Positions 2,300-14,413 of a stretch of 14,413 nt of DNA are shown piece after piece. The stretch covers positions 1 to 14,413 of the forward strand of contig JAFCCM010000045.1 of the NCBI GenBank assembly GCA_017610225.1. The letters are read 5' to 3'. The translations under genes were made by a program, and so were the position numbers. Under the pieces are notes generated by a model. That model was not told the origin of the DNA. It saw nothing but the letters and a program-made list of their open reading frames with translations, and searched no databases. Position 1 is the first letter of the stretch. Every line of letters starts with the position of its first letter. The stretch is from Candidatus Aenigmatarchaeota archaeon. GTDB taxonomy: Archaea; Aenigmatarchaeota; Aenigmatarchaeia; CG10238-14.

Positions 2300-2362
2300 T
2301 TTAAGAATTTAATTGAATAATAAATAATAATCATGGGGCAGTAGCTCAGCCTGGGAGAGCAC

Positions 2363-2384
2363 ATATGTCAAAAACATAGCTTAA
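2363..2384 (+). other. tRNA-Phe intron 1 (22 nt, position 27/28)
   Basis: The bulge-helix-bulge fold can be read directly. D-stem strand GAGC (2357-2360) pairs with GCTT (2379-2382) as the four-base central helix. The three-base bulges are ACA (2361-2363) and AAA (2383-2385). The intron helix is TATGT/ACATA (2364-2368 with 2374-2378) around CAAAA. Cutting after the second base of each bulge removes exactly 22 nt and joins C27 to A28, completing the anticodon stem. No outer exon helix is apparent, so this is a relaxed motif. Confidence 0.85.
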
Positions 2385-2401
2385 ACGGCTGAAGACCGTG
2401 G

Positions 2402-2431
2402 AAATAGTGGGCGAGAATCCCTATTGCGGAA
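2402..2431 (+). other. tRNA-Phe intron 2 (30 nt, position 44/45)
   Basis: Anticodon-stem strand CCGT (2396-2399) pairs with GCGG (2426-2429, one G-U) as the central helix. The bulges are GGA (2400-2402) and AAT (2430-2432). The intron helix is AATAG/CTATT (2403-2407 with 2421-2425). Cutting after the second base of each bulge removes 30 nt and leaves a normal five-base variable loop GTGTC. As with intron 1, the outer exon helix is not formed. Confidence 0.85.
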
Positions 2432-2441
2432 TGTCCGGAGT

Positions 2442-3160
2442 TCAAATCTCCGCTGTCCCATTCTTCCATTTATTATACTTAGAAATATGTTTTGGGTTAT
2501 GAAATCCTATCAAAAATACAAATTTTTCAATGTTCTTTTTTCCATTAATTTGAATATAATTTGTAGTAAATGTAAACCCTCTTTTATCTACTCTTTTAAC
2601 ATCAAATTTATGATAAACTGAAAATTCATATCTCTTGAAAACATCTCCACAATTTCTTTAGCCAAAATTCTATCTTTTATAGAAGTTGTAATTCTTGGGT
2701 ATTTCTTTCCATTTACGTTTCTTAAAGTGAAAGAGAAATCTGTGTCTACAAAGCCACGAAGAAATGCAAACAATAATTCCTCTTTATCTTTTATCCATTC
2801 TGGAATAGTGAGATTATTTTTAGGACTAGAAAAACCCAAATTCAATAAGAAATTATACAAACCTTTTGATCTAAATCTAATGTAGATTGTTTGTTGATCT
2901 TTTCTCTTAATAAATTTAGAATTTACATTAAAAAGATTCTCGAAAAGTTTCTTTACAAATGTTAAATGATATTTTATATCATCTTTAGAATGTCCAGATA
3001 TACTCATCATATAATCCTTTCTTTTATCCGAAACTCCAGAATAACCATCGCCATATATAATTCCTAAAAATTCCGCTAATTCTTTACTTGTTTCTTGTGG
3101 TAATTTCAGACCCCTTTTTATATCAAAAATACTAAATTGTGGTTCAAATTCAAATCTCAT
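2442..3160 (-). pseudogene. LAGLIDADG homing endonuclease, frameshifted near its C-terminus
   Basis: The open frame from ATG at 3158-3160 gives 190 residues and stops at 2588. LAGLIDADG motif 1 is at about residues 30-40 (LAEFLGIIYGDGY, catalytic D38) and motif 2 at about 131-142 (FAFLRGFVDTDF, D141; the usual final Gly is Phe). After about residue 179 the frame loses sense. In the next frame the family-like tail resumes (NFSVYHKFDVKRV, then FTTNYIQINGKKNIEKFVF and IGFHNPKHISKYNKW) and ends at TGA 2442-2444, inside the antisense of tRNA-Phe. One extra base, for instance in the A4 run at 2621-2624, would restore a protein of about 239 residues, normal for a two-motif enzyme. It appears free-standing, with an A-box (AATATTTAAAAA, 3175-3186) about 22 bases before the start. 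A sequencing error in the A-run is the main alternative. Confidence 0.83.
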
Positions 3161-3323: not shown

Positions 3324-3344
3324 CTTTTACAACAAGTGAGAGAT

Positions 3345-3878
3345 ATGCTTCAAGGAGAATTAATCAAACAAAGAGTAATGATCTTCAAGAAATCAGAAGA
3401 TATGAATAGTTTAGCAGAATCTGGGTATGGAAAATTAATAGATGATAAACTAGAACTAGCATTAGTAGAAGCAATGTATCTTGTTAATAAAGAGAAAATA
3501 GAAGTAAAAAAGGATAAGAAAAAAATGAAGAAAAATGACCTTCTCAAGTACTGTGAAGAAACTGAACATAATTTTCATGCCAGGTTGGTTGTTTACACAG
3601 ATATGCGTGAAAGAGGATTTGTTGTTAAAACCGGATTCAAGTTTGGGTGTGACTTCAGGGTATATGATCGCGGAGTAAAAATTAAAAAAGGTCCTAAACA
3701 AGCACATGAGCATACAAAATGGGTAATTCATGCTATACCAGAGGAATTTACCTGTTCTTTTCCTGAACTTTCCCGCGCAGTAAGGCTTGCTCAAAATATT
3801 AGAACTGAGATGATTTGGGCTATTATTGATTCAGAAGGGGATGTTACTTATTATTCTATTAAGAGGATTACACCTTAA
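3345..3878 (+). CDS. endA: tRNA-splicing endonuclease EndA, aligned catalytic Lys replaced
   Basis: This enzyme cuts tRNA introns at bulge-helix-bulge motifs. The product has 177 residues from ATG 3345 (180 from GTG 3336), the size of the homotetrameric type such as the 179-residue Methanocaldococcus jannaschii enzyme. An N-terminal domain with LALVEAMYLVN is followed by the catalytic domain (VVYTDMRERGFVVKTGFKFG, DFRVYDRG, then WAIIDSEGDVTYYSI at the end). Counting from the GTG, the catalytic Tyr is Y110 and the catalytic His is H126. The third member of the triad, Lys in the family consensus VRK(K/E), aligns with Thr157 here (IRTEM). That alignment is from memory. The gene is convergent with the ATP-cone gene, with one base between the stops. 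The doubly interrupted tRNA-Phe lies about 900 bases upstream and is an expected substrate. Confidence 0.93.
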   Translation: MLQGELIKQRVMIFKKSEDMNSLAESGYGKLIDDKLELALVEAMYLVNKEKIEVKKDKKKMKKNDLLKYCEETEHNFHARLVVYTDMRERGFVVKTGFKFGCDFRVYDRGVKIKKGPKQAHEHTKWVIHAIPEEFTCSFPELSRAVRLAQNIRTEMIWAIIDSEGDVTYYSIKRITP

Positions 3879-10969: not shown

Positions 10970-12097
10970 TCAACCACCATATAGACCACATAATTTATAT
11001 CTCTTATAACCACTATTCGTTGAATCTACTAGCTCGATAAAACTAAGTTTTTCTAATTTCCTAATTATTCTTCTAGAATGTGTCATACTTCTCGATGATA
11101 CATTAGCCGAATCAATGGTAGTAAAAAATCTATTTTTTTTATGTAGTTCTATAAGTTTTTCGAGATAAAACCCAAAACCTTTATGAAACTCTTTTTTATT
11201 TAGTTTTATGAGTTCTTCACAACGTATTCTTTTACTCAAACTATTCAAAATGAGATTTTCACTAAGTTTTTTAGTATCTTTGTAAAGAGATATAAGTAAT
11301 CGCCACATGATCCTCTTCTCATCATTAAGAGAATAATAGTCAGATGCTGGAAAAATAGAACATTTTATATTGAAACTTCTGAGTAATCTCCCTATATCAT
11401 AAAGGAGAAATGGTGGAATTCCATCATCAAAACCTAGATCAATTCCAATTTTTCCACCACTTATATAACCATCGTCGTCAATAAATTGGGATATAAATTG
11501 TATTTTTTTATCATTCGGTAAATCGAATATGAATTTAGGTATTCTGGGATTAGTAGAAGTTTTAGATCCACTCTTAAAACCTATAGATTCCATTATATAT
11601 TTGAAAATTTTAGGAAGACTAATTGTAGTTACAGTCTGATATTCATATCTTTTAAATGGGAAATAACCAAATATACTTTTTGAACAATTTAAAAATTCAT
11701 TTATAAGATTTTCATCTTGGTTGTAATAACGAATTCCTTTACTGTGAATGCATCCATCTCCTAAAAGACAAGATATAAATCTGACACCATCTTTTGTTGT
11801 AAAATCAAATGGAAATTTTGGATATTTTAGTGGAGCTCCTTGTTTTCCTAATATCCCCTTGATTTTTATATCATGAATATTGAATAATTCTAAGATTTTA
11901 TGAAATTTATCTAATCTCAATTTCTCCGTATTACTATAAAACCAATCTCTTAATTTCAATTTAAGCAAAAAACGATAAAAATCCTTTCTTTTCCTTATTT
12001 TTTTCTTTATTTTCAATTTATCACGTTCTTCTAATTCTACAAAAATTTCTTTTTCTGGTAATTCTTCTAATGTGACAATTCCGTTCAAATCACTCAT
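10970..12097 (-). CDS. two-motif LAGLIDADG protein with C-terminal winged-helix-like tail
   Basis: The product has 375 residues and is intact. The N-terminal 95 residues are basic and helical (KLKIKKKIRKRKDFYRFL). LAGLIDADG motif 1 is at about 106-115 (RFISCLLGDG, catalytic D114) and motif 2 at about 201-210 (FISQFIDDDG, D209), with the usual beta-strand regions after each. The last 55 or so residues (TIDSANVSSRSMTHSRRIIRKLEKLSFIELVD, then YKRYKL) look like a winged helix. Its ATG overlaps the HTH stop (ATGA at 12094-12097) and its TGA abuts the PHP ATG, so it is embedded in an operon and not within an intron or intein. It may be a homing endonuclease or one co-opted as a DNA-binding regulator. 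Confidence 0.87.
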   Translation of the reverse strand: MSDLNGIVTLEELPEKEIFVELEERDKLKIKKKIRKRKDFYRFLLKLKLRDWFYSNTEKLRLDKFHKILELFNIHDIKIKGILGKQGAPLKYPKFPFDFTTKDGVRFISCLLGDGCIHSKGIRYYNQDENLINEFLNCSKSIFGYFPFKRYEYQTVTTISLPKIFKYIMESIGFKSGSKTSTNPRIPKFIFDLPNDKKIQFISQFIDDDGYISGGKIGIDLGFDDGIPPFLLYDIGRLLRSFNIKCSIFPASDYYSLNDEKRIMWRLLISLYKDTKKLSENLILNSLSKRIRCEELIKLNKKEFHKGFGFYLEKLIELHKKNRFFTTIDSANVSSRSMTHSRRIIRKLEKLSFIELVDSTNSGYKRYKLCGLYGG

Positions 12098-12309
12098 TCC
12101 TTCAACCTCACTACTCTGATCAAATTTCCCTTTCCTCTCAGAACTTCCTCTATCTCATCTTTCATGAACCCATTAAGATATCTGTTAACAGTAGATTTAC
12201 TTATTCCTGTTTTTCTAGATATTTCCCTGGTCCACAAACCTGTTGGATTTTCAATCAATTCCCTACGTATTTTTTTTATTTTTTTTAGGTCAGGGCCTTT
12301 TTTTGGCAT
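12094..12309 (-). CDS. small winged-helix HTH DNA-binding protein, probable autoregulator
   Basis: The product has 71 residues. After a basic start (PDLKKIKKIRREL) comes a helix-turn-helix (about 27-47: TREISRKTGISKSTVNRYLNG) and a short strand pair at the end (GKGNLIRVVRLKE) that could be the wing. It is the first gene of the HTH-LAGLIDADG-PHP unit and overlaps the next gene by ATGA. The promoter carries one imperfect and one perfect copy of GGGACA-AA-TGTCCC, the sort of twofold-symmetric site a dimer of such a protein would bind, so autoregulation is the natural reading. The ATG at 12307-12309 sits 27 bases after its A-box. Confidence 0.85.
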   Translation of the reverse strand: MPKKGPDLKKIKKIRRELIENPTGLWTREISRKTGISKSTVNRYLNGFMKDEIEEVLRGKGNLIRVVRLKE

Positions 12310-14148: not shown

Positions 14149-14413
14149 CTAATCCCTAATCCCTTCAGTCAAAACTCTAAACACACACTCACCAGGAGGA
14201 AGATCAGGAGAATCCATTATCTTTGCAATTCTTTTTTCGCCAGAAGACTTCCTTAAATACACCCTATATGTACTTTGATGGGCCAAAATGTGGCCTCCGA
14301 CTGGTCTAGTAGGATCTCCAAAAAGAATAGCAGGATTTGCTTGGACTTGATTAGTAATATAAATTGCAAGATTATGAGCATCAGCCAATCTTTGCAACGC
14401 ATGAAGATGCTTA
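14149..14413 (-). CDS. radA: RadA recombinase, C-terminal part (5' end beyond the window)
   Basis: The frame is open to the right edge and ends at TAG 14149-14151, giving the last 87 or so residues. The sequence [58 protein letters not shown] and [13 protein letters not shown] is typical of the archaeal RadA/Rad51 core. It includes the region of DNA-binding loop 2 and the NQV strand. RadA forms ATP-dependent filaments on single-stranded DNA for homologous recombination. The Walker motifs are outside the window. A TTG at 14395-14397 is not the start, because the family sequence continues upstream of it. Confidence 0.97.

Follow-up and report, generated by a model that had tools for sequence, protein, structure and literature searches.

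Why does a tRNA-Phe gene carry two introns at non-canonical sites, directly beside the gene of a homing endonuclease and 0.9 kb upstream, on the same strand, of the gene for a splicing endonuclease (endA)? The question arises from a stretch of archaeal DNA of 14,413 nt, referred to here as the window, in which a two-intron tRNA-Phe(GAA) gene occupies positions 2335-2460 (+). The features of the locus are given in Table 1.

Table 1. Features of the tRNA-Phe locus, in window coordinates
Feature	Position	Strand	Remarks
Exon 1, tRNA-Phe positions 1-27	2335..2362	+	21/21 stem pairs after excision
Intron 1, 22 nt, site 27/28	2363..2384	+	bulges AC^A, AA^A
Intron 1, central helix	2357-2360 with 2379-2382	+	pair probability 0.91-1.00
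Intron 1, intron helix	2364-2368 with 2374-2378	+	
Exon 2, tRNA-Phe positions 28-44	2385..2401	+	anticodon GAA at 2391-2393
Intron 2, 30 nt, site 44/45	2402..2431	+	bulges GG^A, AA^T
Intron 2, central helix	2396-2399 with 2426-2429	+	pair probability 0.62-0.85
Intron 2, intron helix	begins 2403 with 2425	+	
Exon 3, tRNA-Phe positions 45-73	2432..2460	+	21/21 stem pairs after excision
C-terminal endonuclease piece, other frame	2457..2614 (upper coordinate approximate)	-	profile 49.8 bits, 71-aa frame
190-aa LAGLIDADG homing-endonuclease ORF, first part of frameshifted gene	2588..3160	-	PF14528 E 3.5e-6
EndA, tRNA-splicing endonuclease, 180 aa, alpha type	3336..3878	+	PF02778, PF01974

Excision of both introns left a tRNA-Phe of 74 nt with all 21 stem pairs (7+4+5+5), the anticodon loop CTGAAGA and all 10 scored consensus letters. 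The anatomy of the tRNA, the motif, its conservation and the enzyme gene can be read from the DNA itself, and a sequence-only reading of the locus had already placed introns of 22 and 30 nt at 27/28 and 44/45, left position 37/38 uninterrupted and expected a perfect tRNA-Phe(GAA) on excision. All of this was borne out. That reading made no mention of the adjoining endonuclease gene or of endA. Enumeration of every two-intron excision that leaves a tRNA with anticodon GAA and 20 or more pairs gave 108 junction pairs, and the 27/28 and 44/45 pair was the only one with a complete 4-bp central helix at both introns. Both introns were of the bulge-helix-bulge (BHB) kind, with a 4-bp central helix and 3-nt bulges at both splice sites. 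The same reading was right that strands of the D stem and the anticodon stem of the tRNA supply the central helices, and that both motifs are relaxed, i.e. lack the outer exon helix. The stacked outer helix was 0 at either tRNA-Phe intron of the window, and both are therefore classed as HBh'. When the intron letters were shuffled with the exons fixed (criterion: a 4-bp helix together with five or more base pairs in the intron helix), a motif of the intron 1 type arose in 0 of 200,000 shuffles and one of the intron 2 type in 16 of 200,000. We consider the gene almost certainly a spliced tRNA gene, and judging by its sequence the precursor would be cut in the cell.

The gene was missed by ARAGORN in default mode and by Rfam at the gathering score; the sole Rfam match in the window was a tRNA-Val. 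With introns allowed, ARAGORN miscalled the gene as a tRNA-Leu with one 33-nt intron. The catalytic core of a group I intron takes about 200 nt or more, and group I introns were ruled out for this gene by size (22 and 30 nt) and by the Rfam search.

The unconstrained minimum-energy fold of the precursor (-43.0 kcal/mol) contained both BHB motifs, at the pair probabilities listed in Table 1, and in this default fold an extra helix followed the 3x3 internal loop at intron 1. With intron 1 removed, the pair probabilities of the intron 2 motif were still 0.51 to 0.68; with intron 2 removed, those of the intron 1 motif were still at least 0.91. Since the motifs persist after either single excision, either cutting order is possible. 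The claim that the precursor must refold to be cut has the order reversed. As the default fold already has both motifs, refolding to the cloverleaf should come after cutting, not before. The fold predicted for the mature tRNA-Phe was not a cloverleaf; folding of single sequences without modified bases is a known weakness in the prediction of tRNA cloverleaves.

The EndA protein of the window matched those at L001 (78%), L002 (77%) and L003 (69%), which places the window in Aenigmatarchaeota and agrees with the DPANN host named earlier. Its structure model (pLDDT 88.7) was nearest to the solved fold 1a79, the M. jannaschii enzyme (TM 0.86). The protein has an inserted loop at residues 117-121 (KKGPK) before the catalytic H126, and T157 stands at the position of the catalytic lysine, which aligns with K287 of A. 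fulgidus and with the lysine of M. jannaschii. Position 157 was A, T or S in all of 50 Aenigmatarchaeal EndA proteins, a set that leaves out L011, L051 and L052, and likewise A, T or S, never lysine, in all 75 proteins of a wider set; L051 and L052 do have lysine at this position. Y110 and H126 were kept in 50/50, as were K121 and G119 of the inserted loop (K[KR]GPK). The alpha subunit of N. equitans has a similar loop and retains the lysine. In the Aenigmatarchaeal enzymes, the catalytic lysine may have been relocated to the loop. No earlier report of a lysine-less EndA in archaea was found in the open-access literature searched.

The near kin G001, G002 and G003 had one PF01974 gene each, and a single EndA gene was found in five carriers of a relaxed 27/28 intron (G018, G040, G022, G064 and G096); all eight are metagenome-assembled genomes of unstated completeness. 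Genome G017 had two EndA genes, the second without the catalytic histidine (by eye). EndA was preceded by a paralogue apparently without this histidine at L044, L035, L037, L040, L042, L049 and L050 (by eye), and the histidine-less paralogue is likely a beta partner. Elsewhere (G004, G007-G010, G012, G013, G016 and others), the alpha gene was adjoined by another EndA-like gene, which at about 400 aa is e2-like by its length.

A tRNA-Phe gene was decoded at 55 of 68 EndA loci, and at 50 of these it lay up to 3 kb upstream, on the same strand. Because these loci include genome G031 twice, the tRNA-Phe gene was upstream in 49 of 54 genomes, within 150 nt in 21. The endA gene here follows the gene of one of its own substrates, tRNA-Phe.

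Across the phylum, window included, tRNA-Phe had introns in 43 of the 61 genomes in which it was decoded and none in 18, counts that are approximate because some short decoded introns are uncertain (e.g. 10 nt at 59/60 in L040). Three of these genomes (G004, G024 and G088) were entered by reading and the others by decoding; in the 2x2 table used below, G024 and G088 were entered by eye and G004 from an earlier gene listing. The free-ended decoder gave spurious introns near 6/7 to 9/10 at some loci, and the intronless decode was used instead for L014, L041 and L045. An Ile-type gene read as Phe (G082) was left out. The view that such introns are uncommon in DPANN did not hold in this phylum, where some genes have three or four. 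Four introns were decoded in the tRNA-Phe genes at L038 (8082-8260), L108 (1126-1268), L046 (7931-8108) and L023 (8842-9078). As a background, 15 to 21 of 38 tRNAs were interrupted in G001 and 12 to 24 of 35 in G003, both by match length.

A pattern search for the 27/28 intron gave a match in 9 of 156 phylum genomes. Five matches were tRNA-Phe genes (G017, G064, G040, G018 and G022) and four were not tRNAs; the decoder added G096, which makes six carriers besides the window. Between the window and the five carriers found by pattern, the hairpin letters of the 27/28 intron varied and its end, GCTYAA, was constant. The stacked outer helix at 27/28 was 0 in 7/7 genomes, window included. A 44/45 intron of 30-31 nt was also found in G017, G040 and G047. 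The G017 gene (L044) matched the window in intron positions and in lengths (22 and 30 nt), but its hairpin letters differed. The 27/28 carriers, including the window, fell in four places on the EndA tree, several deep nodes of which had low support, and near kin G001, G002 and G003 had intronless tRNA-Phe genes. Because carriers are scattered on this tree and close kin are intronless, the introns appear to come and go, or to move.

The 190-aa ORF beside the tRNA scored 217 bits against the profile of its endonuclease family. PF14528 covered its second half only, and matches to solved structures were weak (a V-ATPase chain, E 0.0017; I-DmoI, E 0.016). The family alignment had invariant G-D-G and D-T-D columns, one per half. 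The C-terminal piece overlaps the 3' end of the tRNA-Phe gene by 3 nt. As this second piece lies in another frame and at the tRNA end, the endonuclease gene is frameshifted and abuts the tRNA; it has no intact reading frame, the two pieces being in different frames. By its sequence, the gene is a remnant of a homing endonuclease. A second LAGLIDADG ORF was seen at 10970-12097 (-) of the window, with no tblastn matches among the relatives' loci compared; it is adjoined by an ORF at 12094-12309 that is HTH-like by eye. The RadA piece at 14149-14397 (-) is uninterrupted, and RadA at L001:11507-13759 has an intein-like insert there (by eye).

A family profile built from nine relatives of the window endonuclease had matches in at least 103 of 156 phylum genomes at E 1e-6, inteins included. 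We examined 82 loci (the window, L095 and L114-L193), which are the stronger matches among those listed; the weaker matches outside this set were mostly long intein-like frames. Three of the 82 loci were at a contig edge and six were in LSU rRNA (L135 by Rfam, five by eye). At 70 of the remaining 73, a tRNA gene was close by, often touching, with about a third seen by eye only. No tRNA was seen near the endonuclease at L144 and L160, and the sole tRNA at L173 was 311 nt off. By automatic detection alone, the 3' end of the endonuclease was within 60 nt of a tRNA in 38 of 78 cases, versus 26 of 814 control ORFs. Once the pattern had been seen, it was tested in a second phylum of 19 genomes, 3 of which had matches. 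There, 5/5 endonucleases adjoined tRNA genes: initiator Met, Phe and two Gln by program, and a Leu/Ser-like gene by eye. This family very probably homes on tRNA genes. No earlier report of tRNA-linked endonucleases in archaea was found in the open-access literature searched. A group I intron was seen in the LSU rRNA gene near a family endonuclease (L135:2413-2705, -).

The isotype of the neighbouring tRNA was labelled by eye for 57 of the 70 tRNA-linked endonucleases, and the six LSU members brought the tree to 63. The isotype was unclear for the 13 left out (L133, L137, L142, L150, L153, L162, L168, L169, L171, L183, L187, L189 and L193). The intronless library proved too small for template decoding of all isotypes, and this approach was abandoned. 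The tree, with 14 labels, required 20 changes; 2000 shuffles required 47.8 on average and never fewer than 42. Genome G047 has five labelled copies beside five isotypes, four of which group with same-isotype copies elsewhere and the Gln copy does not. The window endonuclease grouped with copies that adjoin tRNA-Phe in G018, G024 and G127 (SH-aLRT 95), of which the G018 copy (L048:8077-8826, -) has an open frame; Phe-linked endonucleases formed two more clades, separate from this one and from each other. Isotype-specific homing is well supported. Within one endonuclease clade the intron positions differed: 27/28 and 44/45 in the window, 9/10 and T-arm in G127. These differing positions, the division of the Phe-linked copies into three clades and the broken state of the window's endonuclease gene weigh against the explanation proposed below. 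In G088 (L157), a 638-nt BHB intron at 30/31 of tRNA-Phe, with a BHB of 4+12 bp, encloses a LAGLIDADG endonuclease. The abutment on tRNA genes, the clades that follow isotype, the patchy distribution and this enclosed endonuclease are the observations that speak for homing.

Introns were present in all 11 tRNA-Phe genes that have an endonuclease no more than 60 nt away, versus 32 of 50 genes without one (p 0.014, kinship ignored). Over all isotypes, 63 of 70 endonuclease-linked tRNAs looked interrupted, judged from gene length and reading. The seven that were linked and intronless were at L130, L143, L154, L163, L176, L190 and L191, and the initiator tRNA beside the L204 endonuclease of the second phylum was intronless as well. 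At L118 and L124 we claim T-arm introns only and leave the exact junctions unclaimed, because junctions placed by eye failed a check. The position of the endonuclease remnant against the tRNA-Phe gene, in a family whose branches mostly keep to one kind of tRNA gene, suggests a connection between the introns and the mobile enzyme. The linked but intronless tRNAs, the 32 interrupted tRNA-Phe genes with no endonuclease near and the common background introns of G001 and G003 speak against it. At the level of genomes, the median number of model-detectable tRNAs was 17 with an endonuclease match of at least 100 bits (among the matches listed, LSU members included) versus 12 without (p 0.029), with up to 29 candidates scored per genome. 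Genomes with the endonuclease thus have more detectable tRNAs, and endonuclease load does not predict tRNA disruption. The idea that more endonuclease means more broken tRNAs was therefore rejected, as the medians lean the opposite way.

We propose the following explanation. The tRNA-Phe transcript would fold into two relaxed BHB motifs, EndA from the gene downstream would cut both, and ligation and refolding to the cloverleaf would follow. The tRNA-Phe gene would also be the homing site of a Phe-linked LAGLIDADG endonuclease lineage that cuts intronless tRNA-Phe genes, and repair would copy the endonuclease along with the intron-bearing allele. A carrier would be protected because its introns split the target, and EndA would ensure that the tRNA stays usable. 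The target site of the endonuclease, its cutting and the protection are what we infer here. Taken whole, a working spliced tRNA-Phe gene that is also a homing site with target-interrupting introns appears probable to us. For the short introns as target-breaking immunity taken separately, our confidence falls just short of even; intron immunity against the endonuclease is plausible.

The introns might instead be ordinary BHB introns unrelated to the endonuclease, in a phylum where intron-rich tRNAs are normal and endonucleases settle at harmless places beside tRNAs. This would agree with the 32 of 50 tRNA-Phe genes that are interrupted with no endonuclease near, with the seven linked tRNAs that are intronless and with endonuclease-bearing genomes not being more disrupted. 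However, mere parking of endonucleases fails to explain why clades follow isotype, at less than half the changes of any shuffle, or why an endonuclease lies inside the tRNA-Phe intron of G088, and we consider this explanation unlikely. Introns could also have been gained by transposition at the RNA level, with EndA and ligase running splicing in reverse, followed by reverse transcription and recombination. This has reportedly been proposed for Thermoproteales, in a paper on tRNA intron transposition that both PMC8450103 and PMC3218864 cite. The wide variation of intron positions and numbers among relatives fits such a process. The same two positions and lengths in distant hosts (the window and G017) do not, and because the sites are the same and the hairpin letters changed, they point to introns that were inherited or came by gene transfer and did not hop in anew; we rate this route as less likely still. 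That the gene is dead and an intact second tRNA-Phe does the work is very improbable: the stem pairs, the consensus letters and two splicing motifs are complete, and G017 retains this organisation despite a change in the intron helix.

The working gene with target-interrupting introns is thus the explanation we retain. A wider scheme is put forward tentatively, with a little less confidence than immunity at this locus. In it, homing endonucleases split by isotype would exploit tRNA genes, which are essential and conserved, as homing sites, and target-breaking BHB introns would spread with the enzyme. The EndA of the phylum would be a further, alpha-only kind that, with the usual catalytic lysine lost and an invariant one acquired in a new loop at the active site, accepts the relaxed motifs arising from this arms race.

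The introns resemble the HBh' BHB introns of Thermoproteales and other Crenarchaeota in their 4-bp central helix, 3-nt bulges, intron helix, non-canonical sites and number of several per gene; unlike those, their host is an Aenigmatarchaeon. According to a review (Hirata 2019, PMC6379350), efficient cutting of relaxed motifs is confined to (ab)2 and e2 enzymes, whereas the sampled near relatives of the window each have just one EndA, of the alpha type. The EndA result casts doubt on the rule that relaxed introns require a two-subunit or three-unit enzyme. For archaeal tRNAs, the tRNAscan-SE 2.0 paper (PMC8450103) puts the maximum at three introns, and four genomes decoded here have four (L023, L038, L046 and L108).

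The locus bears on the question of why archaeal tRNA genes gain introns. Randau and Soll suggested, as related in PMC3218864, that introns protect tRNA genes against mobile elements. This idea becomes testable by a cutting assay, because the locus offers a candidate mobile enzyme and a specific tRNA that occurs in intron-bearing and intronless alleles. The enzyme is like the I-DmoI kind of endonuclease from archaeal rRNA introns in having a LAGLIDADG domain of similar size, and 6 of the 82 family loci are themselves in LSU rRNA; unlike that kind, to which the similarity is weak, most of the family members examined are free-standing against tRNA genes and form clades that follow isotype. Free-standing homing endonucleases of the phage type act on a neighbouring gene. 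The arrangement at this locus is similar in that the enzyme lies outside the interrupted gene. It differs in that the target would be tRNA genes and the interrupting element a BHB intron cut by a host protein.
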